A DNA stretch of 8,712 nucleotides from Phycisphaerales bacterium (GTDB taxonomy: Bacteria > Planctomycetota > Phycisphaerae > Tepidisphaerales > Tepidisphaeraceae): NCBI GenBank assembly GCA_028288905.1, contig JAQGHJ010000101.1:1-8712 (forward strand). Direction: 5' to 3'. Made by a program: the position numbers and the translations under genes. The notes below the pieces were generated by a model, which saw nothing but the letters and a program-made list of their open reading frames with translations, did no database searches and had not been told where the DNA came from. Positions 30 through 8,617 of this stretch are shown one piece after another. Within the stretch, counting starts at the first letter, position 1. Every line of letters begins with the position of its first letter.

Positions 30-43
30 CAGCACTCAGCACT
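30..43. repeat. Tandem heptamer CAGCACT x2 overlapping a stop codon
   Basis: Two exact adjacent copies of CAGCACT occupy 30-36 and 37-43. The TGA stop of the minus-strand gene (36-38) and its final Cys codon lie inside them. The 7-bp period and the CAG start resemble the heptamers of the inverted repeats at 1983-2101 and 4393-4537, so this may be one arm of a related element cut by the window edge. With only two units, chance is not excluded. Confidence 0.4.
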
Positions 44-800
44 TCTTCACGTCCCACACCCGCCGGGTCGCCGCGATCAGGCCCATCGCCAGCATGACGC
101 CGAGGCCGGAATAGGCGGCCGGGGGGAGCGGGATCGGGGTCGGGCCGGCGGACGGGGCCGGGTCGACCGGGGCGGCGACGATCGTCGGGCGGAGCAGTCC
201 GGCGATGCTGGCGGTGCCGCCGGCGATCCAGTCCTGGCCGTACGGCCCGGACACCTCGTCGGCCACGGCGAACGTCGCCCGCCCGCCGGCGTCGTACGTG
301 GTCGCATCGGTCTTGACGATCAGCACCGGCGGCCCGCCGAGCCCGGGGGTGTCGCTGGCGAGCGTGATCCGGCTGCCGTCGGCCGACCGGGACGCCCGGA
401 CGAGAGCCTCGAAGTCGAGCCCGCCGGTCACCGCGGTCTTGGCCTTGGCGAACGACGATACGGTCAGCTCCGACCGCTCGGCCGCCTCGGAGAACCCGGC
501 CGCGTCCAGCACGTCCACGTCGTACACGAACGTGAGCGACCCGCCGACGTCGTACACCGCGCTGCGGAGCACGCCCTTGAGGGTGCCGGCCGTCGGGCGG
601 TCGGTGGCGGCGTAGTCGATCGCGAACGCGGACGACGTCTCGGCCAATGCCGAGCCGGCCGGCAGCATCAGGTCGACCGAGTCGACCGGGATCGACTGCC
701 CGGGGTCGACCGCCCCGGCGGACGCCAGCGCGGGGGCCAGGAGGAGGGAGCACAGGGCCGCGGCGGCGCGGCGGGCCGGGAGGGTAAGGGTGGAGCGCAT
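36..800 (-). CDS. Secreted protein with VPLPA-CTERM-like sorting tail, function unknown
   Basis: Predicted 254-residue exported protein. Residues 1-28 form a classical signal peptide: an Arg-containing start, a hydrophobic Ala/Leu core, and a likely cleavage site after ALASA. The middle (about 30-215) is Gly/Thr/Val-rich and looks like beta structure; I recognise no enzyme motif. The tail from about residue 223 reads IPLPPAA, then a hydrophobic stretch of about 16 residues, then RR. This is the tripartite layout of exosortase-sorted proteins and is closest to the VPLPA-CTERM variant rather than VPEP. The start at 800 is chosen because AAAGGA lies 9 nt upstream and the signal peptide begins there; the frame stays open further upstream only because the spacer is GC-rich. 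The tail ends in VWDVKKC instead of the usual Arg cluster, and its last codons fall in a heptamer repeat. Likely cell-surface or envelope-associated; the specific role is unknown. Confidence 0.8.
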   Translation of the reverse strand: MRSTLTLPARRAAAALCSLLLAPALASAGAVDPGQSIPVDSVDLMLPAGSALAETSSAFAIDYAATDRPTAGTLKGVLRSAVYDVGGSLTFVYDVDVLDAAGFSEAAERSELTVSSFAKAKTAVTGGLDFEALVRASRSADGSRITLASDTPGLGGPPVLIVKTDATTYDAGGRATFAVADEVSGPYGQDWIAGGTASIAGLLRPTIVAAPVDPAPSAGPTPIPLPPAAYSGLGVMLAMGLIAATRRVWDVKKC

Positions 801-809
801 CGGTTGGAG

Positions 810-815
810 TCCTTT
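810..815 (-). promoter_or_regulatory. Shine-Dalgarno site AAAGGA
   Basis: On the minus strand AAAGGA sits 9 nt before the ATG at 800. It decides this start over the upstream in-frame alternatives, which lie in low-complexity Pro/Arg-coding spacer. Confidence 0.55.
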
Positions 816-894
816 CGCCGGGGGTCGTCGGTCGCGGTCGCCGTCGGGTGGAGCGGATCCGCCGCCGTCGGGCGTGCGGCCGGGAAATCGGCCC

Positions 895-944
895 CGCCTA
901 CGCTGCTTTCGGCCGCGCGGGCCGGCCGGCAATAGCGGTAGGCG
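895..944. promoter_or_regulatory. Inverted repeat CGCCTAC/GTAGGCG upstream of the secreted-protein gene
   Basis: CGCCTAC at 895-901 is matched by its exact reverse complement GTAGGCG at 938-944, enclosing GC-rich sequence with an inner GGCC/GGCC pairing (911-914 with 920-923). It could be an operator or an RNA leader hairpin of the minus-strand gene starting at 800. At this GC content a 7-bp match over 50 bp is only weak evidence. Confidence 0.2.
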
Positions 945-1092
945 TTTATGGGACGGCGGGCGGGAAAGGGGAGCGGACCCAGGGTGGGTTGTCGGGCGTC
1001 GCGGGGGGCGACGGGGATGTGGTGAGCGTGGTAGCCGACCCTCGGAAATGGCGGGAGATTGTCGTGTCGATCTGGCTCCCCCCACACCCTCC

Positions 1093-1119
1093 GGGCGGGG
1101 GCGGGGACGGGGACGGGGG
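1093..1119 (+). repeat. Array of five G-runs, G-quadruplex candidate
   Basis: Five runs of 3 to 5 guanines are separated by only 1 or 2 bases (1093-1095, 1097-1101, 1103-1106, 1109-1112, 1115-1119), with a (CGGGGA)-like period of 6. This satisfies the usual G-quadruplex pattern on the plus strand. It lies mid-spacer, about 290 bp from one start codon and 365 bp from the other. It may also be a decayed copy of the GGGTGAGGGTG repeat seen at 5583 and 5837, since a GAGAGTGAACGTGAA-like tail follows. Confidence 0.45.
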
Positions 1120-1194
1120 CGAGAGTGAACGTGAAGCGGAACGGGGCCCACTGGCTACCCCGCGAGACCCAGGTGGATGTTCCGCCGATCGGAC

Positions 1195-1484: not shown

Positions 1485-1988
1485 ATGCTTCCACCGCTTC
1501 GTCGACAACGCGCCCGCGAGCTGGCCATGCAGGTCCTGTTCCTGTGGGACGCCAACGGCCAGAGCGACCCGGCCCTCGCCCGGGCGGCAATGATCGGGTC
1601 GGCGACCGCGGTCGAGCTGCCGCTGACGGCCGCCTCGCCGCCCGCCGCCCCCCCGCCGGAGCCGCCGGACGCGGAGGTGATCGAGCTCGCCGTCTCGATG
1701 GCTTTGGGCGCGTGGGAAAACCGGGCCGCGTCCGACACCTGGGTCGTCCGACTCGCCCCCCAGTGGCCGCCCCGCCGCCAGCCCGGCGTCGACCGGAACA
1801 TCCTCCGGCTGGCCGTCTGGGAGATGACCCACGCGGACACCCCGCCGAAGGTCGTGATCGACGAGGCGATCGAGATGGCCAAGCGGTTCAGCACCGAGAA
1901 CAGCCCGTCGTTCGTGAACGGCGTGCTCGACGCCGTCTACCGGGAAGTCCAATCGTTGACCGCCGGCGGGCTGCCGGCGGGTCAGTAG
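1485..1988 (+). CDS. nusB: Transcription antitermination factor NusB
   Basis: A 167-residue member of the NusB family, which with NusE (ribosomal protein S10) binds boxA RNA and supports antitermination of rRNA operons in the cytoplasm. The family signatures are clear: an Arg-rich [14 protein letters not shown] start (residues 6-19), [13 protein letters not shown] (102-114) and the C-terminal block [16 protein letters not shown] followed by [10 protein letters not shown] (125-152). Length is near the usual 130-170. Residues about 45-63 are a Pro/Ala-rich linker, which I read as a lineage-specific loop. The ATG at 1485 is chosen because the Arg-rich helix starts right after it and because a -10 element ends 10 bp upstream; the reading frame itself is open much further upstream through spacer. 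The TAG stop and the last Gln codon lie within the first heptamer of the inverted repeat that follows. First gene of a possible nusB-ftsY-ATP-grasp unit. Confidence 0.93.
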
Positions 1989-2101
1989 CCAGGGGTCAGT
2001 GGTCTGTAGTGAGTGGTCAGTAGTGGGGCCACGCGCTGCCGACCGGGCGATGACGTCGGTGCCGTTCCGCCACTACTGACGACTGACGACGGACCACTGA
2101 C
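1983..2101. repeat. Heptamer-built inverted repeat filling the nusB-ftsY gap
   Basis: The left arm (1995-2026) and right arm (2070-2101) are reverse complements over 32 bp with 4 mismatches, around a 43-nt loop. Each arm is a run of four 7-bp units of the form CAGTNGT (for example CAGTGGT, CAGTAGT). On the left the units continue outward to 1983, where CAGTAGC contains the nusB stop codon. The right arm ends 11 bp before the ftsY ATG. No transposase or target duplication is visible, so it could be a non-autonomous element or an amplified structural repeat. Transcribed, it would form a long hairpin between the two genes, able to act on termination, mRNA decay or ftsY initiation. Confidence 0.8.
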
Positions 2102-4034: not shown

Positions 4035-5477
4035 TCAGATCTCCATCACCCGCACCATCGTCCCCTTCGGCAGCGCCGGCTCGTTCTCAGCCCGCACTAG
4101 CAGCCCGTTCGCCCGGGCGAGGGTGAACACGTCGGCCGACCCCTTCCACGCCAGCACCTCGACGGCCGGCAGCTCGTTCTGGGCGCTCGTGTGCCCGACC
4201 GGTTGGGTACGGATCACCGGCTGGTAGAACTCCCGCGGCCCGTTGGCCGGCAGCCCGGCGGCCAGTCGGCCGGTCAGCCACCGGTCCGACGGCGGCCCGC
4301 CCGCCAGCCGGGCCAGCACCCGGGCCGCCAGCCGGACCGTGCAGACGAACGCGCTGACCGGGTTGCCGGGCAGGCCGAAGACGAAGCAGTCCGTGGTCAG
4401 TCGTCCGTGGTCAGTAGTTGAAGTGCCGCCTCGCAGCTCGCCACCGCCCGCGCCGCCCTCGCTACTCGCACCGAAGGGTGTTCCACCGCTGCTGTCGTCC
4501 CCGCCGCCCTCACTACTGACCACGGACGACTGACCACTGGCTCGCCCGAACACGAACGGCTTGCCCGGCTTCAGCCGCACCTTCGTGATCTTCAGGTCGA
4601 CGCCGAGGTCGATCAGGGCGGCGGGGACGTAGTCGTAGTTGCCCATGCTCATCCCGCCGGTGACGAACAGGGCGTCGTGGGCGAGCCCGCCGGCGACGGC
4701 CGCCCGGATCGCGTCGGGGTCGTCGGTGACCACGCCGAGGTCGGTCACGTCGCACCCGAGCCGGTCGAGCAGGGCGACGAGCATGACGTTGTTCGAGTTG
4801 CGGATCTGCCAGTCGGCCGGCGTGGTGCCGACCGGGACAAGCTCGTCCCCGGTGCCGAGGACGGCGACGCGGGGGCGGGCGTACACGTCCAGCTCGGCCG
4901 CCCCGACGCTGGCGGCGACGGCGAGCGCCGGGGCCTCCAGCAGGGTGCCGGCCGGCAGCACGACCTGCCCGGCCGGGCAGTCGCTGCCGCGGCGGGCGAT
5001 CGCGTACCCGGGCGGGACGCCCTTCGTCACCCGTACCCGCCCGCGGGCCTCGACGAAGCCGCCCCCGGCCGCCCCGCCGTCGTGCACCTCCGACGTTTGC
5101 TCGACCGGAACGACGGCCTCGGTGCCGGGCGGGACGGGCGCGCCGGTCATGACGGCCATCGCCTCGCCCTGCCCGATCGGGCCGGGGGCGGGCATGCCGG
5201 CCGGCACCTCTCCGACGACCGGCAGCTCGGCCGGGGCGGCGGCCGTGACGGTGTCCGGCCGCACGTCCGCCGCCCGGACCGCGTACCCGTCCATCAGCGC
5301 CTTGTCGAACGGCGGGTAATCCCGGTCGGCCGACACCTCCTTGGCCAGCCGCAGCCCGCGGCATTTCGACAACGGCAAGCGGACGATCCGCGGGGAAACC
5401 GGCTCGGCGTCCAGGAGGTCGACGGCGTGGCGGACGCTCAGGAGCGGGGACACGTCGGGGTCGGTTGGGGCGGGCAC
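4035..5477 (-). CDS. moeA: Molybdopterin molybdenumtransferase MoeA
   Basis: MoeA inserts molybdate into adenylylated molybdopterin, the last step of molybdenum cofactor synthesis, in the cytoplasm. Family motifs run in order (480-residue numbering): YPPFDKALMDGYAVR (54-68), AVMTGAPVPPGTEAVVPVE (108-126), VAVLGTGDELVPVG (204-217), VTDDPDAIRAA (250-260), FVTGGMSMGNYDYVP (271-285), LKPGKPFVFG (302-311), FGLPGNPVSAF (367-377) and the C-terminal beta domain ending GTMVRVMEI. The expected acidic and Thr residues of these motifs are present, so it should be active. Between PGKPFVFGRA and CFVFGLPGNP, where E. coli has about 8 residues, there are about 50 extra Ser/Gly/Thr-rich residues (about 314-363) encoded by an inverted-repeat element. 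The start is uncertain: I take GTG at 5477; TTG at 5513 and GTG at 5453 are alternatives, and none has a clear Shine-Dalgarno. It is convergent with the ATP-grasp gene; no other cofactor genes are nearby. Confidence 0.92.
   Translation of the reverse strand: MPAPTDPDVSPLLSVRHAVDLLDAEPVSPRIVRLPLSKCRGLRLAKEVSADRDYPPFDKALMDGYAVRAADVRPDTVTAAAPAELPVVGEVPAGMPAPGPIGQGEAMAVMTGAPVPPGTEAVVPVEQTSEVHDGGAAGGGFVEARGRVRVTKGVPPGYAIARRGSDCPAGQVVLPAGTLLEAPALAVAASVGAAELDVYARPRVAVLGTGDELVPVGTTPADWQIRNSNNVMLVALLDRLGCDVTDLGVVTDDPDAIRAAVAGGLAHDALFVTGGMSMGNYDYVPAALIDLGVDLKITKVRLKPGKPFVFGRASGQSSVVSSEGGGDDSSGGTPFGASSEGGAGGGELRGGTSTTDHGRLTTDCFVFGLPGNPVSAFVCTVRLAARVLARLAGGPPSDRWLTGRLAAGLPANGPREFYQPVIRTQPVGHTSAQNELPAVEVLAWKGSADVFTLARANGLLVRAENEPALPKGTMVRVMEI
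4393..4537. repeat. Heptamer inverted repeat inserted in frame within moeA
   Basis: Arms 4393-4418 and 4512-4537 are perfect 26-bp reverse complements around a 93-nt loop. The arms consist of 7-bp units such as CAGTGGT, CAGTCGT and CAGTAGT, as in the element at 1983-2101. In the moeA frame both arms are free of stops and encode GQSSVVSS and TTDHGRLTTD; one of the other frames would meet TAG and TGA. The loop encodes a Gly/Ser-rich linker. The insertion falls between two conserved MoeA motifs, at a predicted surface turn. Confidence 0.88.
4452..4517. repeat. Direct repeat with 51-bp offset in the moeA insert
   Basis: The 15-mers at 4452-4466 and 4503-4517 (GCCGCCCTCGCTACT and GCCGCCCTCACTACT) match at 14 of 15 positions and lie 51 bp, or 17 codons, apart. 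In the protein this gives SSEGGG and SSEGGA. It suggests that the loop of the insert grew partly by duplication. Confidence 0.5.
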
Positions 5478-5558
5478 GCCGCCGATGATCGGCCCGCGGC
5501 CGGCGGGGGTCAACGCGGTGGGGTGGGCGGTGACGCTCCGATTGCGCGGCCCGGCTCC

Positions 5559-5600
5559 CCCTCTCCCTCCGGGAGAGGGCGGGGGTGAGGGTGAATGCCG
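5559..5600 (+). repeat. REP-like repeat, copy 2
   Basis: CCCTCTCCC (5559-5567) and GGGAGAGGG (5571-5579) form a perfect 9-bp stem with a TCC loop, followed by a G-rich tail with GGGTGAGGGTG and TGCCG (5583-5600). This hairpin-plus-tail form is typical of extragenic REP-type repeats. It sits upstream of moeA and lacks a T-run on either strand. Confidence 0.65.
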
Positions 5601-5671
5601 AGGCGGCCCCGGACTTGCCGAGCCACCGGGACCGATGGCGCGGGGGCCGTTCGACTTTCATCCCCACCCGC

Positions 5672-7482: not shown

Positions 7483-8547
7483 TCAGTTTACCGGCTGCCG
7501 GCGCTGACGCCGCGCCGCCAAGCCGGCGAAGGCGGCCGCAATCACAACCCCGGCGGTAGACGGCTCCGGGACGGACTCGACCGTCAGGTTATCGAACACC
7601 GTGAACAGCAGGTCCGGGTGCCGGGTGGTCGAAGAATTGACGTCCGATTGGCCCAACGCAAGGTTCGCCCCGCCGAGGGTGAGCGTGCTGGCATCCAGCG
7701 TCGCGATGCGGGTGCCGTCAACGTCCCAGGTAACCGTGTTGCCGTCCTTGGTCAGGACGACCTTGTGCCAAGCGAACCCGAACGCTCCCGCTTGGGTGGT
7801 GCCCGCCTGCGTGTTGGCCGCGTCGCTCCCATACTCCGCTGTCGACAACGACTGCTGGACGCCGGGGGCCGCGACCGACGGGAACAACGTCATGTAATAA
7901 GCGTTGGCGTTGGAGGTAGAGCCGGCCGAGTAGACCCCCGAGGCCGCCGTAGAACTGGTGCCCGACGCCGGAAAGACGCGAAAGTCATCCGTGAGGCCAC
8001 CGTCGCCGGTGGCCGCGAACCCCACCCCGTCCATTTGTCCGCCGGTGACGAGCGCGGTACTGCCGACCACCAAAGGAGCGTTTCCCGACGTGCCGACTGC
8101 GAACAGGACGTTGTTCGTGCCGCCCTGAGAGTTAGCGTTGTCGGCCAGACCGCTAGCGTTTGGGGCCCCGTTGAAGTTCGACCAAGCGTCGAACGACACC
8201 CGGTACGAGGTCCCGAAGTTCTTGCCGGTGGGGGACACGGACAGGCCCGACGTCACGCCGGCGGGCCGGGACGTCACCGGGGCCACAGCGCCGCCGGGGA
8301 TGTTGGCTCGCAGCCGCAACCCGAGCGTGTCGGTGGACCCGGTTGGGGCTGGGATTCCGTAGGCAGAGTAGTCAAAGGCGAACTGGGCCGACTGCAGGCT
8401 CGCGTTGGCAGCCGGGGCGACATTCACCGTCCAATTGGCACTGGTGTTGGTATTGAAGTTGTCCGAAAACAACACGTCGCCCAACGCCGGGCTTACCGCC
8501 GGTGCCAGAACTGCTCCGCCGGCTAAGAGAAGGTGATTTAAACGCAT
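7483..8547 (-). CDS. Secreted PEP-CTERM protein with lectin-like fold
   Basis: Predicted 354-residue exported protein. Residues 1-23 are a signal peptide (MRLNHLLLAGG start, cleavage likely after ALG). The mature part begins DVLFSDNFNTNTSANWTVN and is rich in Asn, Ser, Thr, Gly and aromatic residues. With HKVVLTKDGNTVTWDVDGTRIATLD (about 265-290) it resembles the concanavalin/LamG-like jelly-roll proteins common among planctomycete surface proteins; I see no catalytic motif. The C-terminus is a textbook PEP-CTERM signal: VPEP from residue 326, a hydrophobic segment (about 331-345), then RRQRR. Exosortase would be expected to process it at the membrane and release or anchor it in the envelope. 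The ATG at 8547 is chosen for its AAGGA 6 nt upstream and the signal peptide right after it. It is a monocistronic unit with its own promoter and terminator. It has more AT-ending codons than the core genes. Confidence 0.85.
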   Translation of the reverse strand: MRLNHLLLAGGAVLAPAVSPALGDVLFSDNFNTNTSANWTVNVAPAANASLQSAQFAFDYSAYGIPAPTGSTDTLGLRLRANIPGGAVAPVTSRPAGVTSGLSVSPTGKNFGTSYRVSFDAWSNFNGAPNASGLADNANSQGGTNNVLFAVGTSGNAPLVVGSTALVTGGQMDGVGFAATGDGGLTDDFRVFPASGTSSTAASGVYSAGSTSNANAYYMTLFPSVAAPGVQQSLSTAEYGSDAANTQAGTTQAGAFGFAWHKVVLTKDGNTVTWDVDGTRIATLDASTLTLGGANLALGQSDVNSSTTRHPDLLFTVFDNLTVESVPEPSTAGVVIAAAFAGLAARRQRRQPVN

Positions 8548-8553
8548 CTTTTT

Positions 8554-8560
8554 TCCTTCC
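8554..8560 (-). promoter_or_regulatory. Strong Shine-Dalgarno site GGAAGGA
   Basis: On the minus strand GGAAGGA is followed by six purines and then the ATG at 8547. It is one of the best ribosome binding sites in the window and fixes this start over the in-frame ATGs further upstream. Confidence 0.6.
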
Positions 8561-8617
8561 CTCCAAAACCGGCCACAACGCACGTCCTGCCGCGCAGACA
8601 TCACCTCCGCAATCGAT

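Follow-up and report, generated by a model that had tools for sequence, protein, structure and literature searches.

Several described repeat systems resemble the insert reported here. The Rickettsia palindromic elements (RPEs; Ogata 2000, 2002, as described in PMC10969869) are about 150 bp long and encode a conserved peptide in each family. According to the available text of PMC10969869, they are palindromic repeats lying in frame in unrelated genes, and are predicted to be tolerated by the protein fold. In Xanthomonas (GGGAATC) and Nostoc (GGGGAYT), heptamer repeats are rich in G and fold into quadruplexes; built of 7-bp units, of which four are preferred, they form convergent pairs and are mostly intergenic (89-93% in Xanthomonas). 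The available part of PMC4692102, the source for these heptamers, yielded no description of their in-frame insertion into proteins. In the Beggiatoaceae, the 7-bp direct repeat TAACTGA is also mostly intergenic and can overlap stop codons; its arrays are direct, with only one indirect repeat, and those copies that do fall in open reading frames mostly lie near the protein ends (PMC4679880, available part). Intragenic GTAG and CGTC REPs are dispersed palindromes, some in frame within genes, with a hairpin for each unit and often with RAYTs; the accessible sections of PMC3733652 also describe REP ends that supply TAG stop codons and two Xanthomonas species whose recB genes carry different REPs at roughly one position. 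Long inverted repeats also occur inside translated genes of Nematomorpha mitochondria, where both arms encode conserved protein (PMC6649704, available part).

The window (the whole stretch of 8,712 nucleotides analysed) corresponds to contig C752 in G000, a draft genome of 4.6 Mb in 969 contigs that is 65% complete. The initial annotation had placed it in the Gemmata group. This placement is not retained, as the genome shares a genus with Humisphaera borealis and belongs to the family Tepidisphaeraceae, class Phycisphaerae. Within moeA (Table 1) an inverted repeat sits in frame between PGKPFVFG and FVFGLPGNP. Its arms are 31 nt each and 94% complementary, and both consist of four 7-bp units of the form GTCMGTN. 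The ungapped core of 26 nt is perfect, as had been recognised from the outset, and its score was reached by none of 200 base shuffles of the loop. From PGKP to GLPGNP the loop comprises 60 residues in the window MoeA and 12 in E. coli MoeA, the latter figure coming from an alignment in which one residue there is not printed. About 48 residues are therefore added, in line with the 50 or so first estimated, when the E. coli loop had been put at about 8. The insertion maps to residues 291-293 of E. coli MoeA by alignment.

Table 1. Position, strand and basis of the features of the two repeat copies in the window
Feature	Position	Strand	Basis or remark
moeA, 492 aa, insert in frame	4035..5513	-	ORF; Pfam MoeA_N, MoCF_biosynth, MoeA_C; internal stops 0
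Inverted repeat, 5' arm (gene sense), four heptamers; in-frame translation ASGQSSVVSS	4512..4542	-	Open in 2/3 frames
Spacer of the moeA inverted repeat, 93 nt	4419..4511	-	Arm and spacer comparison; unlike the other spacers compared
Inverted repeat, 3' arm, four heptamers; in-frame translation TTDHGRLTTD	4388..4418	-	Open in 1/3 frames, which is the frame used
Second copy, left arm, four heptamers, nusB-ftsY gap	1995..2022	+	Inverted pair with 2074-2101
Second copy, right arm, ends 11 nt before the ftsY start codon	2074..2101	-	ftsY by Pfam SRP54
nusB stop codon TAG in GTCAGTAG of the repeat	1986..1988	+	Sequence; NusB by Pfam

The remainder of the gene appears sound. All three MoeA Pfam domains were found, the open reading frame crosses the insert without a stop, and the residues invariant in the family are preserved, which agrees with the earlier statement that the other parts of MoeA are intact. 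A model of the protein (AlphaFold2, alignment of 80 sequences) has a mean pLDDT of 87.5 and a pTM of 0.82, and its predicted fold matches gephyrin E, Cnx1E and E. coli MoeA. Block means of pLDDT fall to 42-50 for residues 331-370, a segment located between the confident strands 321-325 and 376-381. The insert is likely to be translated, and the model predicts a floppy, disordered surface loop for it. As in RPEs, the moeA insert is a palindrome in frame in a gene whose domains are intact; its arms add residues in a turn, whereas those of the Nematomorpha repeats encode conserved protein (PMC6649704, available part). The initial annotation had also proposed a hairpin in the mRNA, and a long one is indeed predicted for the inverted pair (-97.5 kcal/mol, z -5.4). 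Elsewhere in the window we observed a 50-nt inverted copy of a further repeat, 88% complementary (1302-1351 and 5552-5601, one copy lying between moeA and mgtE), and, at the contig edge (28-43), a second heptamer family, (CTCAGCA)2.3. The CTCAGCA unit was also inferred in the MoeA loops of two listed proteins (P0016 and P0122) and seen in mnmG DNA of genomes G002 and G004. Two predicted exported proteins, at 7483-8604 (-) and 36-1151 (-), have no Pfam match; the former ends in VPEPSTAG, which we take to resemble a PEP-CTERM sorting signal.

A second copy of the repeat occupies the gap between nusB and ftsY. It had been called extragenic, which holds, if only just: the nusB stop codon falls in GTCAGTAG, beside the arm. 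The ftsY locus was read in 21 genomes, G000 included, with nusB recognised by eye from its C-terminal sequence. In 12 of them nusB is directly upstream, the gap measures -4 to 46 nt and arms are absent; seven were not comparable. Since these 12 genomes have an empty site, the second copy is taken as an insertion. Genome G002 has arms of its own kind in a 72-nt nusB-ftsY gap. The ftsY match of H. borealis (L349, G001:C1:4196233-4197195) contains one internal TGA.

Counting genomic copies had been suggested as a check. In G000 the pattern GTCMGTRGTCMGTRGTC, with one mismatch allowed, gave 38 matches on 15 contigs and its backwards control gave one; copies were examined in 14 stretches of G000 and in the window. 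With at least 6/7 matches required per unit, 20 arms have exactly four units, two have three and none is longer; two-unit matches, some of which arise by chance, were left out of this count. Many of the GTCMGTN arms are paired in inverted, convergent orientation. Only one of 17 places, the moeA copy, lies in an ORF that is coding-like on both sides (scores 0.40 and 0.27), and at no other place do both sides score at least 0.1; the repeat is almost wholly intergenic in G000. Seventeen of the 26 family genomes contain this pattern; counts range from 1 to 276 per positive genome, and the control never exceeds 11. For H. borealis none of 20 places lies in an ORF coding-like on both sides, by a codon model that is weak for this genome (its own moeA scores 0.14), and the octamer GTGCCTYN is unusable as support there since the control beat the pattern, 82 to 44.

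With its 7-bp unit, preference for four units, convergent pairs and mostly intergenic location, the family agrees with the heptamers of Xanthomonas and Nostoc. It differs from them in sequence, GTCMGTN having no run of three G and hence not the G-tracts of the quadruplex-forming units (PMC4692102, available part). Inverted pairing sets it apart from the direct arrays of the Beggiatoaceae, as does the position of the in-frame copy in a turn of MoeA (PMC4679880, available part). It shares with REPINs an inverted doublet around a spacer. Unlike REPs as presented in the accessible sections of PMC3733652, the single arms do not have a hairpin of their own: for the four arms in the window, 78, 115, 110 and 200 of 200 shuffles folded at least as well. 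Twelve spacers were measured: they are 24 to 160 nt long and have nothing in common beyond matches of 10-15 nt, so the internal cargo common to copies that would mark a MITE was not found. We also looked for a link to RAYTs. Domain PF01797 (Y1) gave 19 matches in the four genomes tested, each of which has such proteins. Six array patterns were scanned in about 1.5 kb on each side of 12 of these 19 loci by a procedure that recovers the window arms, and no array was found. A REPIN mobilised by a neighbouring RAYT was rejected on this basis, and the analysis brought to light no enzyme that would move the arrays.

The same turn of MoeA was then compared in relatives, as the initial annotation had proposed. 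Among the 26 family genomes, 14 have this type of MoeA, five have another type with a turn of 12 or 13 residues and seven gave no match. Loops in the 14 span 12 to 73 residues, seven of them exceeding 20 (25 to 73), and in every one a search that reads through stops found a single open frame with no stop across the loop. An inverted repeat beyond shuffles was detected in three of the seven long loops (G000 and G002, 0/200 shuffles reaching the score; G015, 1/200) and was absent in the other four (G001, 43; G008, 88; G011, 22; G019, 200 of 200). The repeats are not the same: the unit in G002 is TTGCAAA (137 genome matches, control 25) and that in G015 is GGGGNTT (47 matches, control 1), the latter resembling GGGGAYT of Nostoc as given in the available part of PMC4692102.

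A wider protein set was assembled from the best 120 of 7,540 and the best 120 of 800 matches, giving 182 distinct proteins, 181 with the motif. Turn length and content vary in these listed proteins: 40 loops are no longer than 14 residues, 50 measure 15-20 and 91 exceed 20 (maximum 118). To these we applied a test that runs through every possible DNA unit and looks for the peptide of the tandem unit and, further along the loop, for that encoded by the reverse complement. At a cut of 11 residues of summed match, 22 of the 91 long loops pass with units of 7 bp, compared with none in 60 shuffled sets and none among 91 control segments taken from other parts of these proteins. No long loop passes with units of 5 or 6 bp, and six do with units of 8 bp (12 shuffled sets, none). 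A looser cut of nine residues yielded 25 loops for 7-bp units, against one control segment and a mean of 0.32 (maximum 2) in shuffles. For the window the test recovered, blind, TCAGTCG, a rotation of GTCAGTC; TTCAGGG, TTGCAAA, TGCTGAG and TTCGGAG were recovered in other loops. Ten repeat classes, defined by patterns written after inspecting the loops, could be assigned in 50 of the 91 long loops and in none of the 90 shorter ones. The remaining 41 long loops match none of the ten classes, and the evidence for a repeat thus does not extend to all long loops.

Outside the family the turn is usually short. The outgroup comprised 80 loci, none from family members, of which 71 had the motif and nine lacked it. 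Sixty-five of the 71 loops have 20 residues or fewer; the plain 12-residue turns of Limnoglobus and Fimbriiglobus belong to this set. The six longer loops are unlike the window insert, and the same insert was thus not encountered in distant phyla, the finding that had been named in advance as pointing to an old domain insertion. Three of these six carry inverted repeats beyond shuffles (Acidobacteriaceae MAGs L077, 0/200, and L137, 1/200; Planctomycetaceae MAG L076, 0/200) and three do not (L074, 200; L119, 188; L081, 154 of 200). On account of L077, L137 and L076, palindromes occupy the MoeA turn in two phyla, going by record titles, and rarely outside the family.

A quick maximum-likelihood tree of the loopless proteins (SH-aLRT at least 80 for 116 of 179 branches) requires 42 changes for the ten classes, or 38 with the weaker branches collapsed, and 40 changes between long and short loops, or 35 collapsed; the changes counted are gains or losses. 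The window sits in a clade of nine (SH-aLRT 99) whose turns hold a bare 12 residues (P0120), GTGCTGA arms (P0016, P0122), other sequence (P0045, P0142), octamer traces identified from peptide patterns alone (P0008, which is H. borealis, and P0107) or GTCMGTN arms (P0121 and the window). P0121, the closest of the listed matches at 72% identity, carries these arms in the corresponding position, around a shorter spacer, and the GTCMGTN insertion may therefore be older than the split between P0121 and the window, although the uncollapsed tree does not pair the two. The initial annotation understated the case: the window insert is one instance of a wider pattern in which different repeats lie at the same MoeA turn in relatives and, in one of them (G002), at sites in five further genes.

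These arrays might have been made in place, slippage producing the tandem heptamers and template switching the inverted arm, with no mobile copy involved. Tandem units and inverted arms are the expected products of those two processes, and the spacers, which have no cargo in common and differ in length between the window and P0121, fit this explanation too. Four-copy arms of the same unit at many other places in G000 do not fit, however, and the 12 arm-less nusB-ftsY genomes have almost no DNA at that site in which slippage could start. We therefore regard manufacture in place as improbable in general, although units may have arisen in this way in single loops. It is less probable again that MoeA of this family acquired the loop long ago as a functional insertion domain, with the repeat incidental to it. 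Loops longer than 20 residues in half of the listed family proteins (91/181) would be consistent with such a domain, but the 40 loops of at most 14 residues would not, and the window's neighbours in the clade of nine carry either nothing or differing repeats. Moreover, the loop is predicted to be disordered and the alignment reveals no conserved residues or fold shared among the long loops. As loops differ between near neighbours, an old domain insertion was rejected.

The strong predicted hairpin could suggest that the mRNA loses the segment or that ribosomes skip it, leaving a protein without it, but the window has no Rfam match at gathering thresholds and all 14 family genomes keep a stop-free frame through loops of 12-73 residues, which a removed segment need not do; this explanation is hardly credible and was rejected. 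Nor do we give any real weight to an assembly artefact or a dying gene, fragmented as the draft genome is, given that P0121, encoded on a different contig, carries these arms at the corresponding position, that the MoeA domains and family-invariant residues are preserved and that other family members have in-frame repeats at this turn.

Repeats also lie in other genes of relatives. In G002, six of 32 TTGCAAA places are in ORFs coding-like on both sides, the genes being those for MoeA, MnmG, a polysaccharide epimerase, PriA, a CofH-like radical SAM protein and an LPG_synthase_C/GNAT protein; the TTGCAAA family is thus in frame in six genes, and the window family in a coding-like ORF at one of its 17 places. 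For G015 the corresponding figure, 0 of 28, is uninformative, since the codon model failed on its own moeA (0.19 and 0.00). MnmG has two variable turns in the family, with heptamer or octamer arrays there in the DNA of G002 and G004. The mnmG genes of these genomes (G002, L246 and L298; G004, L300) hold two or three repeat families in the two turns, in frame, and the MnmG turns of G006 hold repeated GGCACGGGCTTCCAGCCCGTG-like palindromes. Further open frames matching the peptide of the G002 MnmG insert occur in G002 itself and in G023, a genome of the same genus. At three G002 loci (L251, L253 and L264) the inserts look nested, with DAGTRGRGDAG... and ...PASPRPRVPAS outside the TTGCAAA arms, as if one repeat lay within another.

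Taken together, we think it probable that the window insert is a copy of a dispersed repeat lodged in a MoeA turn between predicted β-strands, likely translated as a disordered loop in a working enzyme, and that the repeats of different lineages persist in such tolerant turns. Arrival as an inserted copy is what we infer from the comparisons above, and translation of the insert is presumed from sequence. The earlier view of a short repeat tolerated as a linker agrees with this, the repeat being dispersed and otherwise intergenic, the insert in frame, the MoeA domains intact and the loop predicted disordered; moeA is otherwise intact and the insert looks like a tolerated linker. We propose that the short inverted repeats of each lineage would spread through its genome and that copies which break genes would be lost, leaving those in the small number of turns that an in-frame insertion does not harm. 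Among these, the MoeA turn would be reused often, and is likely a recurrent landing site; the MnmG turns would be others. It follows from arithmetic that, whichever frame is used, tandem copies of a unit whose length three does not divide encode one and the same periodic peptide. An inverted pair, for its part, presents an identical set of two arms whichever way round it lies. A stop-free unit of this kind would consequently have more ways into a gene than ordinary DNA, although how much this matters is a proposal on our part. A stronger version, which we hold to be possible but doubtful, is that the turn is a true insertion hot spot to which some process repeatedly delivers the lineage's repeat, in Planctomycetota and Acidobacteriota alike, and that the tandem 7- and 8-bp build, legible in all frames and unchanged by orientation, is what lets selfish coding repeats live in genes.

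Insertions of this kind are already known; the novelty lies in repeats built of heptamers inside genes and in one turn being used again and again. These inserts differ from RPEs, as described in the available text of PMC10969869, in their tandem 7-bp arms, in having spacers that are unrelated to one another, and in that a single turn is used by different repeats. A literature search, with most subscription papers outside its scope, did not find a recurrently reused MoeA turn or such inserts in Tepidisphaeraceae. Rickettsia is the best-known source of protein-coding palindromes; the present ones occur in Planctomycetota genomes of several megabases and in core enzymes. For annotation, our reading carries a warning: many of the family's long MoeA linkers, along with some of those in MnmG and PriA, would be translated repeats, and a peptide common to unrelated proteins there would reflect a shared insertion and not homology. 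The MoeA turn is where new insertions might be caught in comparisons of close strains, and the different repeats found in it amount to a replicated experiment, performed by nature, that shows which surface turns can accept foreign peptide.
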